Both the position numbers and the translations under genes were made by a program. Positions 4,428 to 16,933 of a stretch of 56,578 nt of DNA are shown here, piece by piece. The DNA lies in contig JAEUOR010000027.1 of NCBI GenBank assembly GCA_016790635.1, positions 1 through 56,578 of the forward strand, written 5' to 3'. The stretch is from Burkholderiales bacterium (lineage in GTDB: Bacteria; Pseudomonadota; Gammaproteobacteria; Burkholderiales; JAEUOS01). Positions within the stretch are counted from its first letter, which is position 1, and the number at the start of each line of letters is the position of its first letter. The notes below the pieces were generated by a model, which saw nothing but the letters and a program-made list of their open reading frames with translations, searched no databases and was not told where the DNA came from.

Positions 4428-5432
4428 ATGAACGCCGTCGTCGCCCCGGCGGAGGCGGGCCGCTGGCGCAGCCTGGCGCCCTTCCCCATGCCGACCTGGG
4501 AGCTCGAAGGCGTGGAGTGGGACGGCCGCCTCTTCCTGATCGGCGGGCTTACCAACGCCTGGGCGGCCAGGAGCGGCTGGCAGCCCAACCGCCTGGTTTA
4601 CGAGTACGCGCCGGCTTCCGACTGCTGGGAGCAACGTGCGTCCATCCCCCTGCCGCAACACCATCTGGCGCTGGCCGAATGCGATGGCGTGATCTACGGT
4701 TTCGGCGGCTATCGCAAGCCTTCCGCCGGGCCGGATGCTTGGGAACCGGTGGCGGATTCCTGGCGCTACGACCCGCGCGCCGACCGCTGGGACGCCATCG
4801 CGCCGCTGCCGGGGCCGCGCGGCGCGGCAGCAGCGTCCGCGCTCGACGGTCGCATCTATGTCGCCGGCGGTTCGGTCGCCTGCAAGCGCCGGGGAGAAGT
4901 CGCGCCACGGCCGGACGCGCCGCATGCGAGCCTCGGCGAGGTGCTCGCCTACGATCCGCGGCGCGACTGCTATGAGGCTGTTGCGCCACTGCTAACGGCG
5001 CGCAACCACCACCTGCTCGAAGCCGTCGGCGGCCGCCTCTACGCGCTTGGCGGCCGCGTCGGCTCCAGCAATGCGTTTACCCTCACCAACCGCATCGACC
5101 TGGTCGAGGAATACGATCCGGCTGACGACACCTGGTGGCCCAGGGCGCGCATGCTCGCCGCGCACGGCGGCATGGCCGCCGGCGTGCACGAGGACGCCAT
5201 CTACGTCTGCGGCGGCGACAACCTGACCATGATTGAGAAGTACGACGCGCGAGCGGATGCGTGGAGCATCGTCGCTCACCTGCCGCGCGCGCGCTTGGGG
5301 GCCTCGGGGGGCTGCGTCGGCGGGCGCTTTCACGTCGTCACCGGGCACGTGCGCACCGCGGAGGGCAGCATGCCGGTCGCCGATCATCTGGCGCTGGAGC
5401 TCGGCTGCAGCTTCAGTCGAGCGCGATGTTGA
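4428..5432 (+). CDS. Kelch-repeat beta-propeller protein
   Basis: The 334-residue protein has glycine pairs at residues about 39, 93, 147, 208 and 262, a period near 54. Each follows a hydrophobic strand (RLFLIGG, VIYGFGG, RIYVAGG, RLYALGG, AIYVCGG) with a conserved W about 30 residues later. This is the kelch blade pattern, giving a five- or six-bladed propeller. There is no signal peptide, so it is probably cytosolic. It begins 33 bp after the hydrolase, and its 3' end overlaps the convergent Bug gene by 20 bp. Kelch proteins bind ligands or partners, and some have enzymatic roles; no specific function is assigned. Confidence 0.8.
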   Translation: MNAVVAPAEAGRWRSLAPFPMPTWELEGVEWDGRLFLIGGLTNAWAARSGWQPNRLVYEYAPASDCWEQRASIPLPQHHLALAECDGVIYGFGGYRKPSAGPDAWEPVADSWRYDPRADRWDAIAPLPGPRGAAAASALDGRIYVAGGSVACKRRGEVAPRPDAPHASLGEVLAYDPRRDCYEAVAPLLTARNHHLLEAVGGRLYALGGRVGSSNAFTLTNRIDLVEEYDPADDTWWPRARMLAAHGGMAAGVHEDAIYVCGGDNLTMIEKYDARADAWSIVAHLPRARLGASGGCVGGRFHVVTGHVRTAEGSMPVADHLALELGCSFSRARC

Positions 5433-6390
5433 GGGAGCGCAGGATCGGTCCCCACTTCTCGGATTGCTGGCGCATGAAGGTCGTCGCGTCCTGCCGGTTG
5501 ACCGGCATGGCCATGACATTGAGCGCCAGCAACTTCTTGTCGTTCTCCGGGACTGCGGCGATCGCGCGCAAGGCCTGGTTGAGGCGGTCCAGGATCGCCG
5601 TTGGTGTTCCGGCGGGCGCGGCGAGGCCGAAGTAGGTCGTGATGGTGACATCGGGGTGGCCGAGTTCGGCCATGGTCGGCACCTCGGGCTGGGTCGGCCA
5701 GCGCTTCGGAAACGCGACCGCCAGGGCGCGCAGCTTGCCGCTGTGTACCAGGTTGATGGTCGCGCCGTCGATCATGAAATCGATGCGTCCACCGATCAGG
5801 TCGACGCTGGCGTCGCTGGCGCCCTTGTAGGGCACATGCAGCAGCCGGGCGATCCCGGTCGAGCGTCGGAACACCTCGGCGATGAGGTGGTTCGGACCGC
5901 CGGCGCCGAAGGAGCCGTATGAAAGCGGTGACGCGCTCTCCTTGGCGGACTTGACCAGGTCAGCCACCGATCGATGCGGCGACTGCGCAGCCACCATCAC
6001 GTAGAGCGTGTTGATGCCCAGCATGCCGATCTCGGCGAAGCCATGCGGGTCGAACGTCAGGTTGCGGTACGCCCACTTGTTTAGCGCGTTGGTCGCGATC
6101 GTCGTCACGAGGAGTGTGTGGCCGTCAGCTGCGGATTGGGCGACGTGTGCGGCGCCGATGTTGGTCGCCGCGCCTGGCCGCGACTCAATCACGAAGGGCT
6201 GTCCCAGGCGCTCCTGGAGTTCGCGTCCGTACAGGCGCGCGAGGCTGTCGGACAGCCCGCCCGCCGGGAAAGGCACGACGATGCGCACTGGCCGACTGGG
6301 GTAGTCGGACTGTGCGAGTACCGATGGTGCGGCGCAGAGCGCGGCGCCAAGTCCAAGGGCTAGCGCTGCCTTCAGGAGCGGACGCTTCAT
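5413..6390 (-). CDS. Bug-family periplasmic solute-binding protein, copy 2
   Basis: The 325-residue TctC/Bug-type binding protein has a signal peptide ending near VLAQ, followed by the family signature YPSRPVRIVVPFPAGG and the later VPYKG and PTMAELG segments. The start ATG (6390-6388) overlaps the TGA of the upstream paralogue by four bases (ATGA), so translation is coupled. It is clearly homologous over its full length to that neighbour (for example ALAVAFPKRWPTQP is identical). Family members capture carboxylates or aromatic acids for tripartite tricarboxylate transporters. No membrane partner genes are present in the window. Confidence 0.9.
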   Translation of the reverse strand: MKRPLLKAALALGLGAALCAAPSVLAQSDYPSRPVRIVVPFPAGGLSDSLARLYGRELQERLGQPFVIESRPGAATNIGAAHVAQSAADGHTLLVTTIATNALNKWAYRNLTFDPHGFAEIGMLGINTLYVMVAAQSPHRSVADLVKSAKESASPLSYGSFGAGGPNHLIAEVFRRSTGIARLLHVPYKGASDASVDLIGGRIDFMIDGATINLVHSGKLRALAVAFPKRWPTQPEVPTMAELGHPDVTITTYFGLAAPAGTPTAILDRLNQALRAIAAVPENDKKLLALNVMAMPVNRQDATTFMRQQSEKWGPILRSLNIALD

Positions 6391-7367
6391 TCGAAGACGA
6401 TGTTGAGCGAGCGCAGCACCGGACCCCACTTGTCGGACTGGGCGCGGATGAAGTCATTCATCTCCGTGCGGCTCATGGACATGGGCATCATGTTCATGGC
6501 GAGGAGGCGCTTGTCCATCTCGGGGTGACTCGCGATGGCGCGCAGAGCCGCATTGAGCTTGTCGGCGACCGCAGCGGGCGTACCCGCCGGTGCCGATAGC
6601 CCGAAGAAGGTCGAGATCGTCACGTCAGGGTAGCCGGCCTCGGCCATGGTCGGCACGTTGGGCTGGGTCGGCCAGCGCTTGGGGAAGGCCACCGCGAGCG
6701 CGCGCAGCTTGCCTGCCTGCACATGGTTGATGGCCGCACCGTCGATCATGAAATCGGTGCGTCCGGCCATCAGGTCGACGTGCGATTCGGGCCCCTTGTA
6801 GGCGACGTGCAACAGGTCCCTGATGCCGGCCCTGGTGCGGAAGAGCTCGGTGATCATGTGGTTGGCCCCGCCATTGCCGTGCGAACCATAGGAGAGCCCT
6901 TTCGGTGACTCGCGCGCGGCGCGCACCAGGTCCTGCACGGTCTGGAAAGGCGACTCCGGGCGCACCACCACGTAGAAGGTGTTGACCGCGAGCATGCCGA
7001 CGTTGACAAAGCCATCCGGGTCATAGGGCAGCTTCTTGTACGTCCACTTGTTGAGCGCGTTCGAGGCGATGGTCGCGACGAAGAGCGTGTGCCCGTCCGG
7101 CGGGGATGCCGCCAGCGCGGCGGCGCCGATGTTGGTCGAGGCGCCGGGCCTGAAGTCGGGTACGAAAGGCTGGCCCAGGCGTTCGGAGAGTTCCTTGGCG
7201 AAAAGGCGCGTCAGATTGTCCGAGAGGCCGCCAGCGCCGAAGGGCACGATGATGCGCACCGGCCGGTTGGGGTAGTCGGACTGCGCGTGGGCGTTCGCAG
7301 CGACGGCGAGCGCCATGACCGCCAGGATGCGGGTGGCGACATGAAGGACTGCGATGTGGACGGGCAT
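6387..7367 (-). CDS. Bug-family periplasmic solute-binding protein, copy 1
   Basis: The 326-residue product has an N-terminal signal peptide (cleavage near NAHAQ), the signature YPNRPVRIIVPFGAGG, and the conserved VAYKG, DFMIDGA and PTMAEAG blocks. The start at 7367 is chosen because GGAGAG lies about six bases upstream; an in-frame ATG at 7385 lacks this. It is the first gene of a two-gene unit with copy 2 and is preceded by a LysR-type element. Capture of an aromatic or carboxylic acid in the periplasm is inferred from family and neighbours. Confidence 0.9.
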   Translation of the reverse strand: MPVHIAVLHVATRILAVMALAVAANAHAQSDYPNRPVRIIVPFGAGGLSDNLTRLFAKELSERLGQPFVPDFRPGASTNIGAAALAASPPDGHTLFVATIASNALNKWTYKKLPYDPDGFVNVGMLAVNTFYVVVRPESPFQTVQDLVRAARESPKGLSYGSHGNGGANHMITELFRTRAGIRDLLHVAYKGPESHVDLMAGRTDFMIDGAAINHVQAGKLRALAVAFPKRWPTQPNVPTMAEAGYPDVTISTFFGLSAPAGTPAAVADKLNAALRAIASHPEMDKRLLAMNMMPMSMSRTEMNDFIRAQSDKWGPVLRSLNIVFE

Positions 7368-7409
7368 GCGGCTCTCCGGGCGCACCGGGCATTTCCGGCG
7401 CTCGCGGCG

Positions 7410-7511: not shown

Positions 7512-8480
7512 CTAGCCGCGTCGTCTGGGCCGGTTGGGGCTTGCTGCGGGGCTCGCGCGTGCGGTCAGGGCGCGGCCGGCGCGGTGCACGCGCTCGACCT
7601 CGCGCTTGAGGTGGTCGAGAAAGCTTGCCGCCGCCTCGCCCATGGGCTTGCGCGCCGCGTCGATGACGAATAGCTCGAGCAGCAGCGGCGGGTCGACCAG
7701 GGGATTGACCGTGTAGCGCGTGCCGTCGAGGTCGCCGGCCAGCATGATGAGCGGCAGGATCACCGACCATTCGCCGCGCGCGACCAGATCGAGCGTTCCC
7801 AGCATGGTGTCGAACTCGAGCCTTCGCTTGACGACGATGCCGTGCGCCGACAGATAGGCCTCGATCATGCGCCGGCGCGCATTGGTCGGGCCGGGGACGG
7901 CCAGGTCCAGCGGGCCGAGGTCGGCAAGGCGCACCGGGGCGCGGTGCACGAGCGCCCCGCCGCGACCGGAGACCAGGAGCTCCGGCGTGCGCGCGAAGGG
8001 CTGCGTGCGCACGCCCTTGGAGCCGATCGCGGAGGGAACGATGGCGAAGTCGAGCTCGCCACCGCGCACCCGGTCGGTCAGGTCGCCAAAGTAGGAATCG
8101 ATCACGCGCACGTTGACGTTGGGATTTTCGGCGGCGAAGCGCGCATAGGCCGGCGCCAGCACCGCGCGTGTCATCACCGGGGTCATGCCGACGGTGATGT
8201 CGCCCACCCGGCTTGCCTGGAAGGGTCTGACCGCGCGCAGCGCGCGTTCGTTCGCGTTGAGAAGCTCGATGCAGGACGAGTAGTAGGCCGTGCCGGCCGG
8301 GGTCGGGCGCACCGCTCCGACGCCGCGCACGAAGAGCTTGACACCGAGCGCGCGCTCGAGCTCGCCGATATGCTGCGAGACGCCGGACTGGGTGGCGTTC
8401 TCGCGCTGTGCCGCAAGCGTGAAGGAGAGTTCCTCGCAGGCAGCGACGAACAGGCGGATGCTGCGGAGCGACGGCGTCAT
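7512..8480 (-). CDS. LysR-family transcriptional regulator
   Basis: The 322-residue protein has an N-terminal winged helix-turn-helix (SIRLFVAACEELSFTLAA, then SGVSQHIGELERALGVKLF) and a type 2 periplasmic-binding effector domain from about residue 90. ATG 8480 overlaps the marR stop by four bases (ATGA), so the two regulators are co-translated. The C terminus is basic and proline/alanine rich. Two matching T-N11-A boxes, at 7436-7476 and 3318-3358, make the Bug pair and the alpha/beta hydrolase its likely targets. An upstream open extension to 9323 is a high-GC artefact over marR. Confidence 0.9.
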   Translation of the reverse strand: MTPSLRSIRLFVAACEELSFTLAAQRENATQSGVSQHIGELERALGVKLFVRGVGAVRPTPAGTAYYSSCIELLNANERALRAVRPFQASRVGDITVGMTPVMTRAVLAPAYARFAAENPNVNVRVIDSYFGDLTDRVRGGELDFAIVPSAIGSKGVRTQPFARTPELLVSGRGGALVHRAPVRLADLGPLDLAVPGPTNARRRMIEAYLSAHGIVVKRRLEFDTMLGTLDLVARGEWSVILPLIMLAGDLDGTRYTVNPLVDPPLLLELFVIDAARKPMGEAAASFLDHLKREVERVHRAGRALTARASPAASPNRPRRRG

Positions 8481-8938
8481 GGCTTGGCGGTGCGGGCCAG
8501 GGTACGGAGAATCTTCTTCAGGGCGGCGATCTCGGCCACCGTGAAGGGCATGAGGATACGCGCCTCGTGGTTCTTGGCTTCCGCCAGCAGGCGCGCGACC
8601 TTGGCGCGCCCCGCGGAAGTGGCCATGACCAGGGTGCGGCGCGCGTCGACCGGGTCGGCGGCGCGCTCGACCAGTCCGGCGGCCTGCATGCGGTTGACGA
8701 GCTTGGTCAGGGTCGGCTGCTTGGCGAGCACCTCGCGCGCCAGGTCGCCAACGCTGGCACCGTCGTTGTCGGCCAGGCTCGCAAGCACGCGCCATTCGAG
8801 TGAACTCAAGCCGGCGTTCCTGACCTCGCGGCCGAAGTCGCGGTAGACCGCGTAGCTTGCCAAAGCCAGCAGGTAGGACAGGTAATCGTCGATGAAGCGC
8901 GCGCGGCGCCGCTTCCCGGGAAGTGGCTTGTTTTGCAT
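8477..8938 (-). CDS. MarR-family transcriptional regulator
   Basis: The 153-residue winged-helix protein has the MarR order: a dimerization helix (residues 10-45), a recognition region (SVGDLAREVLAKQPTLTKLV), and a wing with DARRTLV. MarR proteins of catabolic clusters are usually repressors released by an aromatic acid or its CoA ester. The start codon lies inside the perfect palindrome CATGAATATTCATG (8936-8949), pointing to autorepression together with repression of the divergent operon. There is no Shine-Dalgarno site, and a predicted start site lies only about six bases upstream. Confidence 0.9.
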   Translation of the reverse strand: MQNKPLPGKRRRARFIDDYLSYLLALASYAVYRDFGREVRNAGLSSLEWRVLASLADNDGASVGDLAREVLAKQPTLTKLVNRMQAAGLVERAADPVDARRTLVMATSAGRAKVARLLAEAKNHEARILMPFTVAEIAALKKILRTLARTAKP

Positions 8939-8979
8939 GAATATTCATGTAATATAGTCCGATGCGATCCCCTCCGCAA
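8928..8979. promoter_or_regulatory. Overlapping divergent promoters with a 14-bp palindromic operator
   Basis: Plus strand: TTGTTT (8928-8933), a 16-bp spacer, then TAATAT (8950-8955), with the ATG of the flavin reductase seven bases later. Minus strand: TTGCGG (8979-8974), a 17-bp spacer, then TATATT (8956-8951), leading to marR at 8938. The palindrome CATGAATATTCATG (8936-8949) exactly fills the plus-strand spacer and contains the marR start codon. A MarR dimer there would block both promoters. Confidence 0.7.
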
Positions 8980-9531
8980 GCGCCTGCTTCGATGCCCGCA
9001 TCCCCGGGCGGCGGTACGGCGGTACGCGAGCAGTCTGGGGATGCGGTGAATGCGGGGGACCCGCGCGCGTTGCGCGCGAGCCTGGGCCGCTTCGCCACCG
9101 GAGTGACCATCATGACCGCGGCCGGCAACGGCGGCGGGCCGGTCGGGCTGACCGCGAATTCGTTCACCTCGCTTTCGTTGGATCCCCCCCTGATTCTCTG
9201 GTCCCTGCGCGCCGACTCGCCCTCGCTCTTCGCTTTCGAGGTGGGTGCACATTTCGCCGTCAACGTGCTGGCCGATGCGCAGGTCGACTTGTCGCGGCGT
9301 TTTGCCTCGCGCGTTCCCGACAAGTTTGCCGAGGTGGCCTACGCGGTCAACGATTCGGGCGTACCGCTGCTGCACGGTGCGGCCGCGTGGTTCGAGTGCC
9401 GCACGGAGTCGCGCCAGGCGGCGGGCGACCATGTGCTTTTCATCGGCGCCGTATTGCGCCATTCGGCTTCCGAGCAGGAGCCACTGCTGTTTCATTCCGG
9501 GCACTACCGCTTGCTCGGCGGCTTGCTGTGA
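8962..9531 (+). CDS. Flavin reductase (NAD(P)H:flavin oxidoreductase, DIM6/NTAB type)
   Basis: The 189-residue protein matches the flavin reductase-like split-barrel family: RFATGVTIMTA, GLTANSFTSLSLDPPLILW, FAVNVLADAQ and the C-terminal LLFHSGHYRLLGG. Such enzymes supply FMNH2 or FADH2 to a partner monooxygenase, or electrons to another acceptor. It is the first gene of the six-gene operon and overlaps the next gene by GTGA. The ATG at 8962 coincides with the predicted transcription start, so the mRNA may be leaderless; the first 28 residues are not conserved in type. No two-component monooxygenase is nearby, so the adjacent Fe-S protein is a candidate electron acceptor (inference). Confidence 0.88.
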   Translation: MRSPPQAPASMPASPGGGTAVREQSGDAVNAGDPRALRASLGRFATGVTIMTAAGNGGGPVGLTANSFTSLSLDPPLILWSLRADSPSLFAFEVGAHFAVNVLADAQVDLSRRFASRVPDKFAEVAYAVNDSGVPLLHGAAAWFECRTESRQAAGDHVLFIGAVLRHSASEQEPLLFHSGHYRLLGGLL

Positions 9532-10559
9532 AGCCCGCGCGCCGCGACTGGCGCAAAGCGCCTTGGGTCGCGCCGGCGGAGATCAGCGCGCTCCTGGCGC
9601 CGGTTTCCGGCAACACCATCAATGGTGTCGGCGAGACCAAGCCGCGCCGGCCGCGGCAGATTTTCTGGGCACGCAATGCAGACGACGTGACCCACGCCGA
9701 CCTGTTGCGCGCCGTGGTCGGGCGCTTCAACGGCCCCAAGGTCTTGCATGAGGTCTACGCGCATGCTGATCGCGGCCCGCGCAGACCCGTGCCGGTCGCC
9801 GAGGCGCGCGCACCGGCCGATGCGGCCCAGCTGACCGCGCGCGTCAAGGCGTTCGTGCGCAATCTGCCGGGCGGGCGCCCGGACGGCTACCCGGGAACCG
9901 GCAGCGAGGCGGAGCTGGTCGGCATCGCCGCGCTGCGCGAAGAGTGGGTGTATGAAGGAAAGGGCAGCGGCCTGCCTTTCGTGGTGGTCATGGGCATCGT
10001 CATGGACCACGCGCGGCTGTCGCAGGTCACGCCGGACCCCGAACATCCGGTCAGCGCGCTCGAGGTGGCCGACCAGTACAACCGCGGGGCGCGGGTGGCC
10101 AACTACACCGCGCAGTGGATCCGCGAGCAGGGCTACGACGCGCGTCCGCATGCGGGGCCCTGGGTTGGTTCGCTGAACCTGATCCCCGCGGCGCTGGCCG
10201 CCGGCTTTGGTGAAATGGGCAAGCACGGCTCGATCATCAATCGTACCTTCGGTTCGTCGTTTCGCTTGGCCGCGGTCGAGACCGACATGCCGCTCATGGC
10301 GGACCGCCCGGATTCGTTCGGCGCCGACGACTTCTGCACCCGCTGCCGGGTCTGTACCGATGCCTGCCCGCCGCAGGCGATTTCACCGGTCAAGGACTGG
10401 GTGCGCGGAGAGCACAAGTGGTGGGTCGATTTCGACAAGTGCATTCCTTATTTCAACGAGACCTACGGCTGCGGCATCTGCATCGCCGCGTGCCCGTGGA
10501 GCACGCCCGGACGCGCGCCCAAGCTGGCGGCGACCTGGGCCGAACGCAAGGAGCAGTGA
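9528..10559 (+). CDS. Cytosolic reductive dehalogenase-like (RdhA-family) Fe-S protein
   Basis: The 343-residue product carries two [4Fe-4S] motifs: Cys270-273-276-280 (CxxCxxCxxxCP) and Cys305-315-318-322, with the displaced first cysteine typical of RdhA. Upstream are the RdhA-like blocks AGFGEMGKHGSIINR and VETDMPL, corresponding to the corrinoid-binding fold. There is no Tat signal and no fused oxidoreductase domain, unlike respiratory or self-sufficient RdhA proteins. GTG 9528 overlaps the flavin reductase stop (GTGA). Reductive removal of halogen or another ring substituent using electrons from the upstream flavin reductase is inferred. Epoxyqueuosine reductase is a related but less likely alternative. 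Confidence 0.8.
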   Translation: MKPARRDWRKAPWVAPAEISALLAPVSGNTINGVGETKPRRPRQIFWARNADDVTHADLLRAVVGRFNGPKVLHEVYAHADRGPRRPVPVAEARAPADAAQLTARVKAFVRNLPGGRPDGYPGTGSEAELVGIAALREEWVYEGKGSGLPFVVVMGIVMDHARLSQVTPDPEHPVSALEVADQYNRGARVANYTAQWIREQGYDARPHAGPWVGSLNLIPAALAAGFGEMGKHGSIINRTFGSSFRLAAVETDMPLMADRPDSFGADDFCTRCRVCTDACPPQAISPVKDWVRGEHKWWVDFDKCIPYFNETYGCGICIAACPWSTPGRAPKLAATWAERKEQ

Positions 10560-10560
10560 C

Positions 10561-11607
10561 ATGCAAGGGGAACGCATCGAAGCCAAGTGGGTGGAGAGCT
10601 TCGCCACGACTTTCGGCCTGTGCGGTGTCAAGGCCGGCGACGTCGCCGTGGTGCTCTCCGAGACCCAGTCGCGCCGGGTCAATGTGCAGTTGGCTGAACT
10701 GGCCCTGGCGCGCTTGGGCGCGACGGTTTTCCATATCGTGCTGTCCACGCCGCGCCAGTCTGCGCCGGTGCCGGTGCGCTCGACCGGCGCGTCGGATGCG
10801 ATCGCGCGCATCGGACCGGTGGTGAGCGCGCTCGCACAGTCGACCTTCGTCGCCGACCTGACCATCGAGGGCCTGCTGCACGCGCCCGAGCTGCCCGACA
10901 TCTTGAAGGGCGGCGCGCGCGTGCTGATGGTTTCCAACGAGCACCCCGAGGTGCTCGAGCGCCTCATGCCCGACCCGGCCCTCGAACCCAAGGTCAAGGC
11001 CGGCATGAGGATGCTGAAGGGCGCCAAGCGCATGCACGTGACCTCCACCGCCGGGACCGACCTCGTCATCGGCCTGGAGGGGGCCCGGGTCGGAGGCGGC
11101 TGGGGCTATTCGTCGCGCCCCGGTTCGATCACGCACTGGCCGGGTGGCCTGTGCCTGGCGTTCCCGGCCGAGGCCAGCGTCAACGGCACGCTGGTCATGG
11201 ATGCCGGCGATGTCAATCTCACCTTCAAGCGTTACCTGGAGCGCCCCATCACGCTCACCATCAAGGATGACTACGTGGTCCGCATCGACGGAGATCATCT
11301 GGACGGCGCGCTGATGCGCGAGTACTTCGCGGCCTGGGGAGACCGCGAGGCCTACGCCGTCTCGCACGTCGGCTGGGGCATGAACCCGAGAGCGCGCTGG
11401 GACTCGATGGCCTTCTACGACAAGCGCGACTTCAACGGCACCGAACTGCGCGCCTTCGGCGGAAACTTCCTTTACTCCACTGGCGCCAACGAAGTCGCCG
11501 GACGCCACACCCTGGGCCACTTCGACCTGCCGTTTCGCAACACGACGGTCATGCTGGATGGCAAGCTGGTCGTCGACGGCGGCGTCCTGCACGGAGAACT
11601 GGCGTGA
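10561..11607 (+). CDS. NicX-like extradiol-type ring-cleaving dioxygenase (2,5-dihydroxypyridine 5,6-dioxygenase family)
   Basis: The 348-residue protein aligns from memory along its length with 2,5-dihydroxypyridine 5,6-dioxygenase (NicX): RVLMVSNEHPEVL, HVTSTAGTDL, GYSSRPGSITHWPGG, DAGDVNLTFK, VSHVGWGMNPRA. The iron ligands of NicX (His265, His318, Asp320) correspond to His269, His320 and Asp322 here. Family members open a hydroxylated pyridine ring with O2 in the cytosol. The ATG follows the RdhA-like stop by one base and the stop overlaps the next gene (GTGA), so it is an integral part of the operon. Whether the substrate is a pyridine or a related ring is not known. Confidence 0.85.
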   Translation: MQGERIEAKWVESFATTFGLCGVKAGDVAVVLSETQSRRVNVQLAELALARLGATVFHIVLSTPRQSAPVPVRSTGASDAIARIGPVVSALAQSTFVADLTIEGLLHAPELPDILKGGARVLMVSNEHPEVLERLMPDPALEPKVKAGMRMLKGAKRMHVTSTAGTDLVIGLEGARVGGGWGYSSRPGSITHWPGGLCLAFPAEASVNGTLVMDAGDVNLTFKRYLERPITLTIKDDYVVRIDGDHLDGALMREYFAAWGDREAYAVSHVGWGMNPRARWDSMAFYDKRDFNGTELRAFGGNFLYSTGANEVAGRHTLGHFDLPFRNTTVMLDGKLVVDGGVLHGELA

Positions 11608-12383
11608 GCCTGCCGGCGACGATTGTGCGCGGCAGCGGCGACGTCGCGGTCTTTCTGCTGCACGGTGTCGGCGGCGGCAAGGAAGCCTGGCAGGACAACC
11701 TGGAGGCGATCGCGGCTGCCGGCTGTCGAGCAGTCGCGTGGGACGCGCCCGGCTACGGTGCGTCGGCCCCGCTTGCGCGTCTGGACAACGCGGCCTTCGC
11801 GCATGCGCTCGTCACGCTGCTGGATGACGTCGGCGCGCCTGTGTCGGTGCTGTGCGGCCACAGCATGGGCGGCATGATCGCCCAGGAAGTCGTTGCGCGC
11901 TACCCCGGCCGGGTGCAGGGCCTGATCCTTTCGGCCACCTCGCCTGCATTCGGCAAACCCGGCGGCGACTGGCAGCGCGAATTCCTCGCCAGCCGCTTTG
12001 CGCCGCTGGATGCCGGCATCGGCATGGCCGGGCTGGCGCCCAACCTGGCGCGCGGCATGCTGGCCCCGGGGATGAGTGAAGCCGTGGTCGCTCACGCGGC
12101 CGGCATCATGGCACGCGTTCCGGAGAGCACCTACCGCGCTGCGCTCGCGGCCATCGTCTCGTTCAACCGTCTCGCCGAACTGCCCGCCATCGATGTACCA
12201 ACGCTTTGCCTGGCGGGCGAGCACGACGCCGTCGCGCCGGCCAAGGTGATGCGCCGCATGGCACAGACGATCCCGGGCGCGGAGTTCCGGATTCTTGCCG
12301 GTGCGGGTCACATCGCCAACATGGAGACCCCGGCAGCGTTCAACGCCGCGGTGGTCGAGTTCGTGCAACGTCGTTTCATGTAG
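11604..12383 (+). CDS. Alpha/beta hydrolase (3-oxoadipate enol-lactonase / NicD-like)
   Basis: The 259-residue cytosolic hydrolase has a GHSMGG elbow (Ser87), acid in GEHDAV (Asp208) and base in GAGHIAN (His236), with an oxyanion HGVGGGK loop near residue 20. GTG 11604 overlaps the dioxygenase stop and has GGAGAA upstream. In nicotinate catabolism an alpha/beta hydrolase (NicD) deformylates the NicX product, so acting on the ring-cleavage product is a reasonable inference. Overall the sequence looks closer to enol-lactonase-like hydrolases. Confidence 0.87.
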   Translation: MSLPATIVRGSGDVAVFLLHGVGGGKEAWQDNLEAIAAAGCRAVAWDAPGYGASAPLARLDNAAFAHALVTLLDDVGAPVSVLCGHSMGGMIAQEVVARYPGRVQGLILSATSPAFGKPGGDWQREFLASRFAPLDAGIGMAGLAPNLARGMLAPGMSEAVVAHAAGIMARVPESTYRAALAAIVSFNRLAELPAIDVPTLCLAGEHDAVAPAKVMRRMAQTIPGAEFRILAGAGHIANMETPAAFNAAVVEFVQRRFM

Positions 12384-12405
12384 CCGCTTTCCTGGAGGAC
12401 CCGAA

Positions 12406-13692
12406 ATGTCCGCTGTCCCTGTCGCACCACGTGAGCCCCTGCGCTACCAGCCGCCGTCCATCGCCGGTCCGGCCTATCCGCTGACCGACAAGCAGCGCAC
12501 CCTGCTCGACATCGCTGCGCGCCTGGGGCGCGAGAAGTTCGCCGCGCGCGCCGAACGCTACGACCGCGAAGCCAGCTTTCCCTTCGAGAACTACGCCGAC
12601 ATGCGCGAGGCCGGTCTCCTGCGCATCTGCGTGCCGGAGCAGTACGGCGGCTGGGGCGCCGACTTCACCACCTACGTGATGGTTTCGGCCGAACTGGGGC
12701 GGCACTGCGGCTCGACCGCGTTGACCTTCAACATGCACGCATGTTCCGGGATGTGGTCCGGGTTCATCGCCGACGATCTCGACATGAGCGACGCCGATCG
12801 CGCAACCCACGAAAAGCACCGCGCGGTGCACTACCGGCGCATCGTCGAGGAAGGCAAGGTCTACTCGCAGCCCTTCTCCGAAGGCGGGGCGGCGGCGGCC
12901 GGCAAGGCGCCCTGGGGCACGCTGGCCAGAAAGGTCGATGGCGGCTACGTCGTCAGCGGGCGCAAGATATTCGCCTCGCTCTCCGGCGCCGCCGACTATT
13001 ACGGCATCCTGTGCACCGTCGACAAGCCCGGTGCAACGCTCAGGGACTCGCTTTATCTCGCGGTACCCGCCGACGCGCCCGGCGTGTCGGTGACCGGTGA
13101 CTGGGATCCGCTGGGCATGCGTGGAACGGTCTCGCGCACCCTGATCCTCAAGGACGTGCTGGTCCCCGACGAGGCACGCCTCATGCCCGAGGGCATGTAC
13201 GCGCAGGCCGCGATGCGCTGGCCGCACATGTTTGCGACCCTCTCGCCCACCTACATGGGTATCGCGCAGGCAGCCTACGACTTCACCGTGCAGTACCTGC
13301 GCGGCGAGGTGCCGGGCATGCCGCCTGTGAAGCGCCGCATGTACCCGACCAAGCAGATCACGGTGGCCGAGATGCGCATCAAGCTCGAGCAGACGCGCGC
13401 GCTCTTCCTGCGCAACGCCGCCGATGCGCGCGTGGACCCGCCCAAGGACACGCGCATGGCGATCTACGCGGCGCATTACAGCATCATGGAGGCAGCCAAC
13501 GAGATCTGCCGTCTGGCGGTGCGCACTTGCGGCGGCCAGTCGATGCTGAAGACCCTGCCGCTGGAGCGCATGTACCGCGATTCGCGTTGCGGCAGCCTGA
13601 TGCTGCCGTGGACCGCCGAACTGTGCCTGGACCGGCTGGGCCGCGAATGTCTGTACGAGCCCGGCGAGCGCGACGAAGAGGCCTTGCAATAG
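12406..13692 (+). CDS. Acyl-CoA dehydrogenase family protein
   Basis: The 428-residue flavoprotein has the acyl-CoA dehydrogenase architecture. It has an N-terminal helical domain with VPEQYGGWGADF, a middle beta domain (YVVSGRKIFASLSGAADYY and DPLGMRGTVS), and a C-terminal helical domain ending YRDSRCGSLMLPWTAELCLDRLG. The start at 12406 has GGAGG at 12394-12398, seven bases away. The C-terminal segment carries LPWTAE rather than the common MEGTSEI, which suggests a specialised subfamily. FAD-dependent alpha,beta-oxidation of a CoA thioester made by the downstream ligase is inferred. Confidence 0.88.
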   Translation: MSAVPVAPREPLRYQPPSIAGPAYPLTDKQRTLLDIAARLGREKFAARAERYDREASFPFENYADMREAGLLRICVPEQYGGWGADFTTYVMVSAELGRHCGSTALTFNMHACSGMWSGFIADDLDMSDADRATHEKHRAVHYRRIVEEGKVYSQPFSEGGAAAAGKAPWGTLARKVDGGYVVSGRKIFASLSGAADYYGILCTVDKPGATLRDSLYLAVPADAPGVSVTGDWDPLGMRGTVSRTLILKDVLVPDEARLMPEGMYAQAAMRWPHMFATLSPTYMGIAQAAYDFTVQYLRGEVPGMPPVKRRMYPTKQITVAEMRIKLEQTRALFLRNAADARVDPPKDTRMAIYAAHYSIMEAANEICRLAVRTCGGQSMLKTLPLERMYRDSRCGSLMLPWTAELCLDRLGRECLYEPGERDEEALQ

Positions 13693-13699
13693 CGCGCCG

Positions 13700-15172
13700 A
13701 TGAATCTGTCGCGCATCATCGAACATTGGGCCGGCATGGCGCCGGCCAAGGTGGCCGTGCGTTGCGCCGGCGACGATATGACCTATGCCGAGTTGTGGCG
13801 ACGCACGCTTGTTGCGACCGACGGCCTGGCCGCGCGCGGTGTGCGTTACGGTGATCGCGTCGCCTGGCTGGGCTTGAATCACCCGGACTTCCTGGCCTTT
13901 CTGATGGCCTGCGCGCGCCTGGGCGCCATCGCCGTGCCGCTCAATTTCCGTCTGGCGGCCCTGGAGTTGGCCGGGGTGCTTGACCACGCCGAAGCTGCGC
14001 TTTTTTTCGCCGACCCGCCGATGCGCGCCCTGGCCGAAGCGGTCGTCGCGACCTCGCGCATCCCGCTCGCCGAGTCGGAGTCGCTGTTCAACGAAGGGCA
14101 GTCCGCCGCCGCAGAATGCGCGGGGTCCGACGATGACCCGGTCATGCTCGTCTACACCTCGGGCACCACCGGGCGACCCAAGGGTGCGGTACATACCCAG
14201 GCCAACCTGTTGTGGAACATCGCCGCCGCCACCGCCAGCCAGGACATCACATCGCGCGACCGCCTCTTGATGGCCCTGCCGATGTTCCACGTCGGCGGCC
14301 TCAATATCCAGACCCTGCCGGTCTTGAACGCCGGCGGCACCGTGATCCTGCACCCGCGCTTCGATCCCGGTGCGTGGCTTAATGACCTCGCGCGCGAGAG
14401 GCCGACGCTCTCGCTCCTGGTGCCGGCCACCATCCGCGCCGTGCAGGACCATCCGGATTGGCCGGTGACCGACATGTCGTCGCTGCGCTTCATCAACGCC
14501 GGGTCGTCCACGGTGCCGCTGTCGATGATCCAGGCCTTTCACGCGCGCGGCGTGCCGGTGGGCCAGGTCTACGGCGCCACCGAGACCGGTCCGGTATCGA
14601 TCGTGCTGCGCGCCGAGGACGCCTTCACCCACGAAGGCAGCACCGGCAAGCCTGCCTTGCACGTCGAAGCGCGCCTGGTCGGGCCGGACGGAAAGGATGT
14701 GGCCATCGACCAGCCAGGCGAAATCTGGCTGCGCGGCAAGAACGTCGCCGCCGGCTACTGGAAGGACCCCGCCAACCCCGCGTTCAAAGACGGCTGGTTT
14801 CGCTCAGGCGACCTGGCACGCGTCGATGCGGATGGCTTCTACTGGGTCGTCGGCCGCTCCAAGGACATGATCATCTCGGGTGGCGAGAACATCTACCCCG
14901 CGGAGTTGGAAAACGTCCTGGCCGACTGCCCGGACATCGTCGAGTCGGCGGTGATCGGCCGTGCCGACGACAAATGGGGCGAGATGGCCGTCGCGGTCGT
15001 CGTGCCCAAGCCGGGTTCGACGCTCGACGCGGAGCGCGTCAAGGCGCTCTTCGAGGGCCGGCTGGCGCGTTACAAGCACCCGCGCGAGGTGGTGTTCGCC
15101 GAGACGCTGCCCAAGACCGCGCTGGGCAAGGTGCAGAAGGACGTGCTCAAGGAGCGCCTGGCGGGCGTGTAG
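13700..15172 (+). CDS. ANL-superfamily acyl-CoA ligase
   Basis: The 490-residue AMP-forming ligase has the phosphate loop YTSGTTGRPKG (about residue 151), YGATETGP (about 290), the hinge region GRSKDMIISGGENIYP, and the C-terminal catalytic lysine in PKTALGKVQK. The family activates carboxylic acids as CoA esters with ATP. It starts 7 bp after the dehydrogenase and closes the operon. It could activate the imported aromatic acid or a ring-cleavage product. FadD-like and aryl-CoA ligases cannot be separated by eye. Confidence 0.9.
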   Translation: MNLSRIIEHWAGMAPAKVAVRCAGDDMTYAELWRRTLVATDGLAARGVRYGDRVAWLGLNHPDFLAFLMACARLGAIAVPLNFRLAALELAGVLDHAEAALFFADPPMRALAEAVVATSRIPLAESESLFNEGQSAAAECAGSDDDPVMLVYTSGTTGRPKGAVHTQANLLWNIAAATASQDITSRDRLLMALPMFHVGGLNIQTLPVLNAGGTVILHPRFDPGAWLNDLARERPTLSLLVPATIRAVQDHPDWPVTDMSSLRFINAGSSTVPLSMIQAFHARGVPVGQVYGATETGPVSIVLRAEDAFTHEGSTGKPALHVEARLVGPDGKDVAIDQPGEIWLRGKNVAAGYWKDPANPAFKDGWFRSGDLARVDADGFYWVVGRSKDMIISGGENIYPAELENVLADCPDIVESAVIGRADDKWGEMAVAVVVPKPGSTLDAERVKALFEGRLARYKHPREVVFAETLPKTALGKVQKDVLKERLAGV

Positions 15173-15213: not shown

Positions 15214-16404
15214 TCAATCCACTCGCTCGACGCGGCGGATCATCACGCCGCAGATGATGATCAACCCGGCCGACACGACCAGCAACCCCAACATGCGCTG
15301 CCAGTCGAGCGTGCCGCCGGCCTGCGCGACCGCGGCGGCGACGACCAGCGGGCTGACGAATTGACCGATGTTCGAGCCCTGGATGATCATGCCCTGAACG
15401 GTGCCGACCTGGGCCGGCGTCCTGGCGTGGGTCTGGGAGGCCGACATGACCGAGCCGGGCAGCACACCGACGCCGAAAGAGAACGCGACGCAGGCGGCGT
15501 AGCGCAACAGGTCCGGCAGGCTCTCGGCAAAGGCGGCCGCGCAGGTGACGAGGGTGATGAGGCCGGCGGCGATCACGTTGCTGCCGCGCGCCACGCCGCG
15601 CTGCATGAGCATGCCGCCTACGAGGTTGCCGGGGAAATTGGCCGCGACCATCAGCGCGGTCAGCAACGCCGCGGCGGTGAGACCGACGCCGCGTTCGCCG
15701 ATGAGGTAGGTCGGCAGCCAGACCATGATCGCGTAGTAGTTGAAGACGTAGCAGGCGAAGGCCAGCGCGATCCACCACGGGCCGGCGCGTCTGAGCGGCG
15801 CGGCCGCGCCGCGCCAGTCGAGCGTGTCCGACGCGGGCGGTTCGATACGATACGCGGCACGATTGCGCGAGAGCAGCACCAGCGCGACGAGCGCGGCGCC
15901 GGCCACCGCCAGCCACAGGGCGCGCCAGCCGGCCAGCGCGATCAGCGGCGGCGCGGCGAGCATGCCGATCGCGGTGCCGGCGGGCATGTAACCGCCCCAG
16001 AAGCTGAACAGTGTCTTGCGGTCCCGGTCCGCGGTGGCGGCGATGATCAAAGCCGGCGCGGCCACCACCACCAGCAGAAACCCCATGCCTTCCAGAAAAC
16101 GGCCAGCCAGCAGCAGGAGCGGGCCGTGCGCCAGGACACCGGCCAATCCGCCAGCCACGATCAGTGCAAGCGCCGCGAGGCACAGGCGCATCGCCCCCGC
16201 GCGCGCGACCAGCAGCCCCAGGAAGATAGACGCCACCAGCCCGAGGGTGTTGAACATCGACACCAGCCAGCCGGACTGCGCCAGAGTCAGGCCGAATTCC
16301 GCGCGCAGCACCGGAATCGCCGGGGGCAGCTTGCCGATGGTGAACGCGGCGATCACTCCCAGGGCAACGGCGCCCAGCGCGGCCGGCCAGCGTGTCTCGC
16401 TCAT
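15214..16404 (-). CDS. MFS transporter (CynX/NimT-like)
   Basis: The 396-residue protein has about 12 hydrophobic segments and an MFS-type loop after helix 2. It has an amphipathic SNIGQFVSPL helix near the C terminus and a central basic/proline loop near residues 195-210. It is convergent with the ligase and lies 49 bp downstream of the second ridA on the same strand, so the two are probably one transcript. Uptake or export of the substrate of the neighbouring catabolic operon is inferred. Confidence 0.88.
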   Translation of the reverse strand: MSETRWPAALGAVALGVIAAFTIGKLPPAIPVLRAEFGLTLAQSGWLVSMFNTLGLVASIFLGLLVARAGAMRLCLAALALIVAGGLAGVLAHGPLLLLAGRFLEGMGFLLVVVAAPALIIAATADRDRKTLFSFWGGYMPAGTAIGMLAAPPLIALAGWRALWLAVAGAALVALVLLSRNRAAYRIEPPASDTLDWRGAAAPLRRAGPWWIALAFACYVFNYYAIMVWLPTYLIGERGVGLTAAALLTALMVAANFPGNLVGGMLMQRGVARGSNVIAAGLITLVTCAAAFAESLPDLLRYAACVAFSFGVGVLPGSVMSASQTHARTPAQVGTVQGMIIQGSNIGQFVSPLVVAAAVAQAGGTLDWQRMLGLLVVSAGLIIICGVMIRRVERVD

Positions 16405-16453: not shown

Positions 16454-16933
16454 TCAGGCGAATTCGCACTCGGCCTCGATCTCCACCGGGATGTGCCATG
16501 GCAATTCGGCCACGCCTACCGCCGAGCGCGAGTGCGCGCCGATCTCGGGGCCGAAGATCTCCAGGAGCACGTCCGAGGCGCCGTTGATGACGCGCGGCAT
16601 TTCGTTGAAGCCCGGCGCGGCGTTGACCATCCCCAAGAGCTTGACCCAGGCGGTCACGCGATCCAGGCTGCCGATGCAAAGCCTGAGGTCGGCCAGCATG
16701 GCCAGGAAGGTAAGGCGCGCCGAGCGGGTCGCCTGCTCGATACTGACATCGGTGCCGACCTTGCCGAACGGCCCGCAAATGTTGCCCTCTCCATCCAGCG
16801 GGCCGTGGCCGGAGATCACGGCGCGGCGACCGACCACGCGCACCGGCACGAAAGGCAGGCGCACGCCGGGCGGAAGTTTCAGCGGAGCGGGGAGGACGAT
16901 GCCCAATTCGGTCAGGCGTTTTTCGGCGGACAC
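16454..16933 (-). CDS. RidA-family protein (second copy)
   Basis: The 159-residue product belongs to the longer RidA subgroup. It has the internal block AVISGHGPLDGEGNICGPFGK, then SARLTFLAMLADL, and a C-terminal LPWHIPVEIEAECEFA strand. It differs clearly in length and sequence from the copy at 13-426, so it is not a recent duplicate. It precedes the MFS gene. RidA proteins hydrolyse enamines/imines; some members in catabolic clusters act on pathway intermediates. The two copies bracket the catabolic block. Confidence 0.85.
   Translation of the reverse strand: MSAEKRLTELGIVLPAPLKLPPGVRLPFVPVRVVGRRAVISGHGPLDGEGNICGPFGKVGTDVSIEQATRSARLTFLAMLADLRLCIGSLDRVTAWVKLLGMVNAAPGFNEMPRVINGASDVLLEIFGPEIGAHSRSAVGVAELPWHIPVEIEAECEFA

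Follow-up and report, generated by a model that had tools for sequence, protein, structure and literature searches.

A probable ring-cleavage operon and its described relatives

In steroid catabolism the HsaABCD enzymes act in sequence, with an oxygenase of the acyl-CoA dehydrogenase (ACAD) fold and its flavin reductase followed by a dioxygenase and an alpha/beta hydrolase. An ACAD-fold oxygenase with a flavin reductase is also described for indole catabolism (IifCD/IacA) in PMC6221969. According to PMC10463259, the source of the domain plans used here, the catabolic reductive dehalogenases (RdhA) described to date are large and built by fusion or duplication, and the substrates of the characterised ones are ortho-halogenated phenols. 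Here we describe a six-gene operon at positions 8962–15172 of a 56,578-nucleotide contig from a Burkholderiales bacterium (JAEUOR010000027.1, assembly GCA_016790635.1; its whole length is called the window), in which an RdhA-like protein and a relative of the dioxygenase NicX are encoded together with an ACAD-fold protein, a flavin reductase, a hydrolase and a CoA ligase.

All six genes lie on the forward strand and very likely form a co-transcribed set. They encode, in order, a flavin reductase of the HpaC/HsaB/FerA type (8962–9531; PF01613, E = 1.6e-40); a 343-residue, single-core RdhA-like cobalamin/Fe-S protein with a GTG start at 9528 (9528–10559), recognised by profile, fold and residue alignment; a NicX-family Fe(II) ring-cleavage dioxygenase (10561–11607); an alpha/beta hydrolase resembling PcaD and esterases (11604–12383; PF00561, 2e-26); an ACAD-fold protein, predicted to be a class D flavin monooxygenase (12406–13692); and an AMP-dependent acyl- or aryl-CoA ligase (13700–15172; PF00501, 4.6e-81). 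The junctions are a GTGA overlap at 9528–9531, a gap of 1 bp, a second GTGA overlap at 11604–11607, and gaps of 22 and 7 bp. Coordinates and overlaps are exactly those of the original prediction, and its claim that an RdhA-type protein, a NicX-type dioxygenase and a CoA ligase are joined in one co-directional set is borne out by gene order and junctions. Its family calls also hold in Pfam, NCBIfam and structure matches, with the qualification that, in the protein called an acyl-CoA dehydrogenase, the usual catalytic position is not occupied by Glu. Translation of the flavin reductase may begin as far as about 30 codons downstream of 8962, because the N-terminal extension of the protein is absent from the homologue in genome G002. 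A divergent MarR-family regulator gene on the minus strand (8477–8938; PF12802, 8.5e-16) belongs with the operon.

We favour, tentatively and at slightly less than an even chance, the reading that the operon hydroxylates, opens and processes an aromatic or heteroaromatic ring from which the RdhA-like protein first removes a halogen. The compound would be taken up and dehalogenated; the ACAD-fold protein would then hydroxylate it with reduced flavin supplied by the flavin reductase, the iron dioxygenase would, judging by its family, open the ring, and the product would be hydrolysed by the alpha/beta hydrolase and ligated to CoA. MarR would bind a dyad upstream until the substrate or an intermediate releases it. 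Like HsaABCD, the window pairs an ACAD-fold protein and a flavin reductase with a dioxygenase and an alpha/beta hydrolase, and it shares the first two with IifCD/IacA; unlike in HsaABCD, the dioxygenase is of the NicX family, and scores fall below all Hsa cut-offs (the flavin reductase matches the HsaB model at 1.7e-41, below its cut-off). Judged from sequence, two parts would be of interest, a small type of RdhA and a NicX clade whose specificity has changed.

Conserved core and the NicX-like enzyme

A NicX relative at E ≤ 1e-50 occurs in 26 of the 399 genomes of the order searched, counting the host. All 20 places outside the host genome at E ≤ 1e-100 (L079–L098) constitute the clade loci, and five weaker ones (L099–L103) serve as controls. 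The hydrolase gene is present in 19 of the clade loci (all but L080) and the ACAD-fold gene in 14, 13 of which have both. These 14 ACAD-fold loci also contain the ligase (12 loci, one with a fragment at a contig end), MarR (10), the flavin reductase (5), and a fusion gene of the SdgC type (4). The co-occurrence of NicX, ACAD-fold protein, hydrolase and ligase in related genomes is therefore upheld, and NicX, ACAD-fold and hydrolase genes also stand in a row in three alphaproteobacterial plasmid loci (NicX 54–55%). In place of the ACAD-fold gene, the six remaining clade loci have a gene for a class A FAD monooxygenase, which is 397 residues long in L092 and belongs to a common family of 542–555 residues in L094–L098 (Pfam check run on L092 and L094). 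The closest named protein to the ACAD-fold product of the window (96%) is from a metagenome-assembled genome labelled 'Burkholderiales bacterium'. P0189, in which a NicX stretch precedes the ACAD-fold part, was set aside as an apparent truncated join. On the Aminobacter aminovorans plasmid pAA02 (L116 4263–16376), a NicX-like gene annotated 'peptidase M29' accompanies ACAD-fold and hydrolase genes in a cluster that also holds a gentisate-dioxygenase-like cupin (below its cut-off), an FAA hydrolase, and nitrilase-type, flavin reductase and glutamine-synthetase-like genes.

A dyad, ATGAATATTCAT, at 8937–8948 overlaps the MarR start codon and is predicted to be the MarR operator; ATGAANNTTCAT occurs once in the window, against 0.02 occurrences expected. 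Nine of the 14 ACAD-fold loci carry this dyad in their divergent gap; it is absent from the six remaining clade loci, the five controls and all three plasmids. To the detriment of a shared operator, the exact dyad is missing from the remaining five ACAD-fold loci, where the best near-matches are 9/10 (L086) and 5–7/10 (L082, L084, L085 and L088). Genome-wide counts in eight genomes gave a sole site in G001, G004, G313 and G322, two in the host genome (G000) and G002, three in G293, and four in G233. The only other site in the host (G000:C49:88870) was considered as a second member of the regulon and set aside because it is located within a long reading frame. With a predicted operator and a constant monooxygenase–dioxygenase–hydrolase set, the substrate of the NicX clade should be findable by a reporter screen.

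The NicX-like protein matches no family in our Pfam or NCBIfam copies, and is similar to the NicX structure 7cn3 (E = 5.8e-57) over residues 27–341, essentially its whole length. In alignment to NicX it keeps the iron ligands His265, Ser302, His318 and Asp320 and the substrate residues His105 and His189; all 14 ACAD-fold loci retain His189 as well, and the six clade loci that lack the ACAD-fold gene have Tyr there. Unlike NicX, it is set in a monooxygenase–hydrolase–ligase operon and lacks two glutamates: the Glu177 position is Gly in the window and Gly, Val or Asn in all 20 clade loci, and the Glu308 position is Val in the window. In NicX, Glu177 bonds N1 and O1 of the dihydroxypyridine substrate, according to PMC7910607. 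The statement that NicX opens dihydroxypyridines, on which the original prediction drew, probably does not carry over to this enzyme, in which that residue is missing, and we infer that it would cleave a C–C bond beside a hydroxyl on some ring that is not 2,5-dihydroxypyridine. Telling against this, the five controls, NicX homologues at 38–39%, retain Glu177 but show Phe in place of the essential His105 of NicX, so that residue 105 fails to separate the groups as NicX would predict. The clade is common in Burkholderiales-type genomes, and its substrate is probably one that no one has yet named; sources often call its members 'peptidase M29' or '2,5-dihydroxypyridine 5,6-dioxygenase'. A second NicX paralogue in L082 (16251–19875, genome G179; 35%) has Gln at 177 and Phe at 105, and adjoins a gentisate-dioxygenase-like gene and an SdgC-type gene.

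The same residues bear on a pyridine pathway, in which the NicX-like enzyme would open the ring of 2,5-dihydroxypyridine, carboxylated or not, the hydrolase would be an N-formylmaleamate deformylase, and the RdhA-like protein would dehalogenate a chloropyridine. Strong similarity to NicX, the retained iron ligands and His105/His189 all suit such a route, as does L092, where NicX lies beside the 397-residue FAD monooxygenase and the hydrolase in an arrangement that we take to resemble the nic gene set. The replacement of Glu177 throughout the clade and of Glu308 in the window argues against it, and neither a maleamate amidase nor a maleate isomerase was noticed next to the core genes, although no search was aimed at them; we consider this pathway quite unlikely. 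No paper was found in the open PMC literature that joins N-formylmaleamate deformylase or dihydroxypyridine with an acyl-CoA dehydrogenase (and flavin reductase).

The solved structures closest to the ACAD-fold protein, by sequence as well as fold, are 5z8t, which bears the title 'Flavin-containing monooxygenase', and 5gj7. In an alignment of the window protein and six relatives, SLMLPWTAE stands in place of the EGT stretch that carries the catalytic Glu, leaving Leu/Pro where the base is expected. With moderate confidence, we take the protein for a flavin monooxygenase rather than an enzyme of beta-oxidation. Were the protein instead a true acyl-CoA dehydrogenase acting on a CoA ester made by the ligase, with the flavin reductase serving something else, one would understand why most of its other structural matches are true dehydrogenases and why the ligase is found in 12 of the 14 loci as compared with 5 for the reductase, whose partnership with the ACAD-fold gene is thus not constant. 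The monooxygenase assignment is weakened further in that the EGT motif is clear in only one of three control ACADs aligned and that the structural model is poor (pLDDT 73.3, and below 50 at residues 394–428, where the base would lie); the structure did not decide the chemistry. The absent Glu and the title of 5z8t speak against the dehydrogenase, as do L090 and L093, which have no ligase yet keep both the ACAD-fold gene and the flavin reductase, and we regard it as very improbable. Since these two loci have no ligase, the order in which the substrate is ligated, dehalogenated and then opened, as first proposed, is doubtful.

The best curated matches of the hydrolase are PcaD-like and below cut-off, and the solved structures nearest to the ligase are 8weu (Fatty-acyl-CoA synthase, 1e-114) and 8wev (Feruloyl-CoA Synthetase, 1.1e-114). 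In four loci of the f10 family a hydratase-like FAA protein, scoring below cut-offs, adjoins the ligase, which hints at a meta-cleavage-like lower route rather than the aryl-CoA intermediate considered below.

The RdhA-like protein

The RdhA-like protein shares with NpRdhA, JtRdhA and BhbA the cobalamin-binding fold, an active-site Tyr and Lys/Arg, the eight Cys of two [4Fe-4S] clusters, and an aerobic host. Tyr186 and Arg248 align with Tyr426 and Lys488 of RdhA, and the Fe-S motifs CTRCRVCTDACP (at 272) and CGICIAACP (at 317) follow the CxxCxxCxxxCP and CxxCxxxCP patterns given in PMC6797604; the Tyr, the Arg and the motif Cys are invariant in 30 aligned rows. The gene of BhbA, from the bromoxynil cluster of Comamonas plasmid pBHB, has genes for a ring-cleavage dioxygenase and a receptor of the tripartite-tricarboxylate kind nearby, as in the window. 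Unlike these proteins of about 700–1070 residues, the RdhA-like protein has one core, with no vestigial duplicate and no fused reductase, and it forms a clade apart from both catabolic and respiratory RdhA. Inspection of its first 60 residues by eye revealed no twin-arginine translocation (TAT) motif with a following hydrophobic stretch. The protein would carry cobalamin and two [4Fe-4S] clusters and receive electrons from a partner. A small single-core RdhA type inside an oxygenase operon would, if true, be a compact enzyme for aerobic dehalogenation.

Several observations count against dehalogenation. The match to TIGR02486 (E = 3.9e-31, 109.1 bits) does not reach the curated cut-off of 160.35; the equivalent of Arg552 is Phe311, invariant in the 30 rows; and CobS was not found in the host genome, a draft 89.8% complete and 5.6% contaminated, although a cobalamin riboswitch was. 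The protein may rather be a cobalamin reductase of the operon that removes another group or reduces an epoxide like its distant relative QueG, which would accord with the low score, the separate clade, the loss of Arg552, and the varied substrates suggested by the 11 or more genes of this type that genome G760 carries in three loci. The Tyr and Arg/Lys of RdhA are kept, however, where four QueG rows have a gap and Phe; the structure is far closer to RdhA than to QueG; and, unlike QueG, the protein has no tRNA-binding tail and scores 54.8 bits against the TIGR00276 cut-off of 200. A role other than dehalogenation is in our view unlikely.

The gene's link to the pathway was examined through its neighbours. 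No RdhA gene is present in any of the 20 clade loci and no NicX gene in any of 14 loci of the RdhA type (four of them, L044, L110, L111 and L115, on short or cut contigs), and the gene is therefore not a standing part of the set. The co-occurrence of the two genes in related genomes, by which the original prediction was to be judged, was thus not found, and a fixed, general RdhA–NicX pathway is rejected; of the single pathway with reductive dehalogenation, ring opening and CoA chemistry, the joined gene set stands and a constant RdhA step does not. The connection of the RdhA gene with the pathway comes from a single genome, since the gene is absent from every clade relative seen. A scan of genome contigs with a single protein as query gave one locus only. 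When contig sizes were compared for the best 120 proteins per list, the NicX and ACAD-fold lists had 11 in common, and the RdhA and NicX lists four: 56578 (this window), 1503, 1574 and 5349. The 1503 and 1574 matches look like chance, the contigs being too short for both genes; 5349 bases is the length of the longest contig listed for each of the metagenome proteins P0068 (RdhA type) and P0278 (NicX clade), a possible exception that may be chance. The one size shared by the RdhA and ACAD-fold lists, 2672, also looks like chance because the pair comes from different sources. Plasmid-borne spread of the RdhA type was rejected, as tblastn of PLSDB returned 41 records, none covering 80% of the query and all below 60% identity.

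This distribution invites the view that the gene is a passenger that only uses the operon promoter and acts on some unrelated halogenated compound. Its occurrence beside NicX in this genome only is in line with that, as are the unlike neighbours of other members of the type: a P450 (L044), a luciferase-like monooxygenase (L112), an FMO-like gene (L043) and DctP (L110). The tight fit of the gene (a 4-bp overlap and a 1-bp gap), its position between the two oxygenation arms, and its GC3 of 0.858, within the 0.805–0.883 of the other five genes and hence no composition break, point the other way, and a passenger seems to us decidedly unlikely. The open PMC literature, covered mostly at listing level, yielded no such operon; PMC12366334 and PMC11277490 contain both 'reductive dehalogenase' and 'dihydroxypyridine'.

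Three further RdhA genes are present in the host genome (L119 8494–9756, L120 8244–10367 and L121 8116–10206), one of 420 residues and two of the catabolic type (707 and 696 residues) that keep Tyr-Lys-Arg and have no fused reductase. Its single cobalamin riboswitch (G000:C74:200243–200461) lies about 13 kb from one of the catabolic genes. The short RdhA-like genes of G760, a genome of 2.4 Mb, form two tandem runs of five and one single gene (L046, L047 and L048).

Flanking genes and a possible aryl-CoA intermediate

A plus-strand gene at 533–2917 encodes a FAD_binding_3 and OYE-type fusion of the salicylyl-CoA 5-hydroxylase/2-aminobenzoyl-CoA monooxygenase (SdgC) type, exceeding the NF006101 cut-off (1100 against 1078 bits). 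It differs from the operon genes in its location, about 5.5 kb away, and is probably associated with the pathway from outside the operon: homologues 65–82% identical occur in the NicX locus of four ACAD-fold loci (G001, G002, G004 and G179), adjoining MarR–NicX in the first three. That this gene occurs in the window, and next to the operon in those three genomes, hints at an aryl-CoA intermediate, for example salicylyl- or 2-aminobenzoyl-CoA, and at a benzo-fused substrate.

A more far-reaching reading takes these observations together: the RdhA-like protein would found a fifth kind of reductive dehalogenase (stand-alone, soluble, single-core, of about 340 residues), a plug-in gene that spreads among oxygenase operons of aerobic Proteobacteria and opens their O2-dependent ring-cleavage routes to halogenated substrates, placed here in a widespread MarR regulon whose NicX-clade enzyme cleaves a ring other than dihydroxypyridine, perhaps a hydroxylated benzo-fused N-heterocycle such as indoxyl. 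Indoxyl (3-hydroxyindole) would perhaps pass through N-formylanthranilate to anthranilate or salicylate, on which the ligase and the aryl-CoA hydroxylase nearby would then act. As a whole, we think this somewhat unlikely.

A convergent MFS transporter gene on the minus strand (15214–16404; PF07690), which has a homologue of 63% identity in the corresponding position in G001, G002 and G004, is probably associated with the operon, and a minus-strand RidA/YjgF-like gene (16454–16933; PF14588), with a 75% homologue in the G004 locus, possibly so. At 5413–7385 are two tandem receptors of the tripartite-tricarboxylate (Bug) type and, upstream on the minus strand, a LysR gene; relatives of the receptors also occur in several NicX loci.

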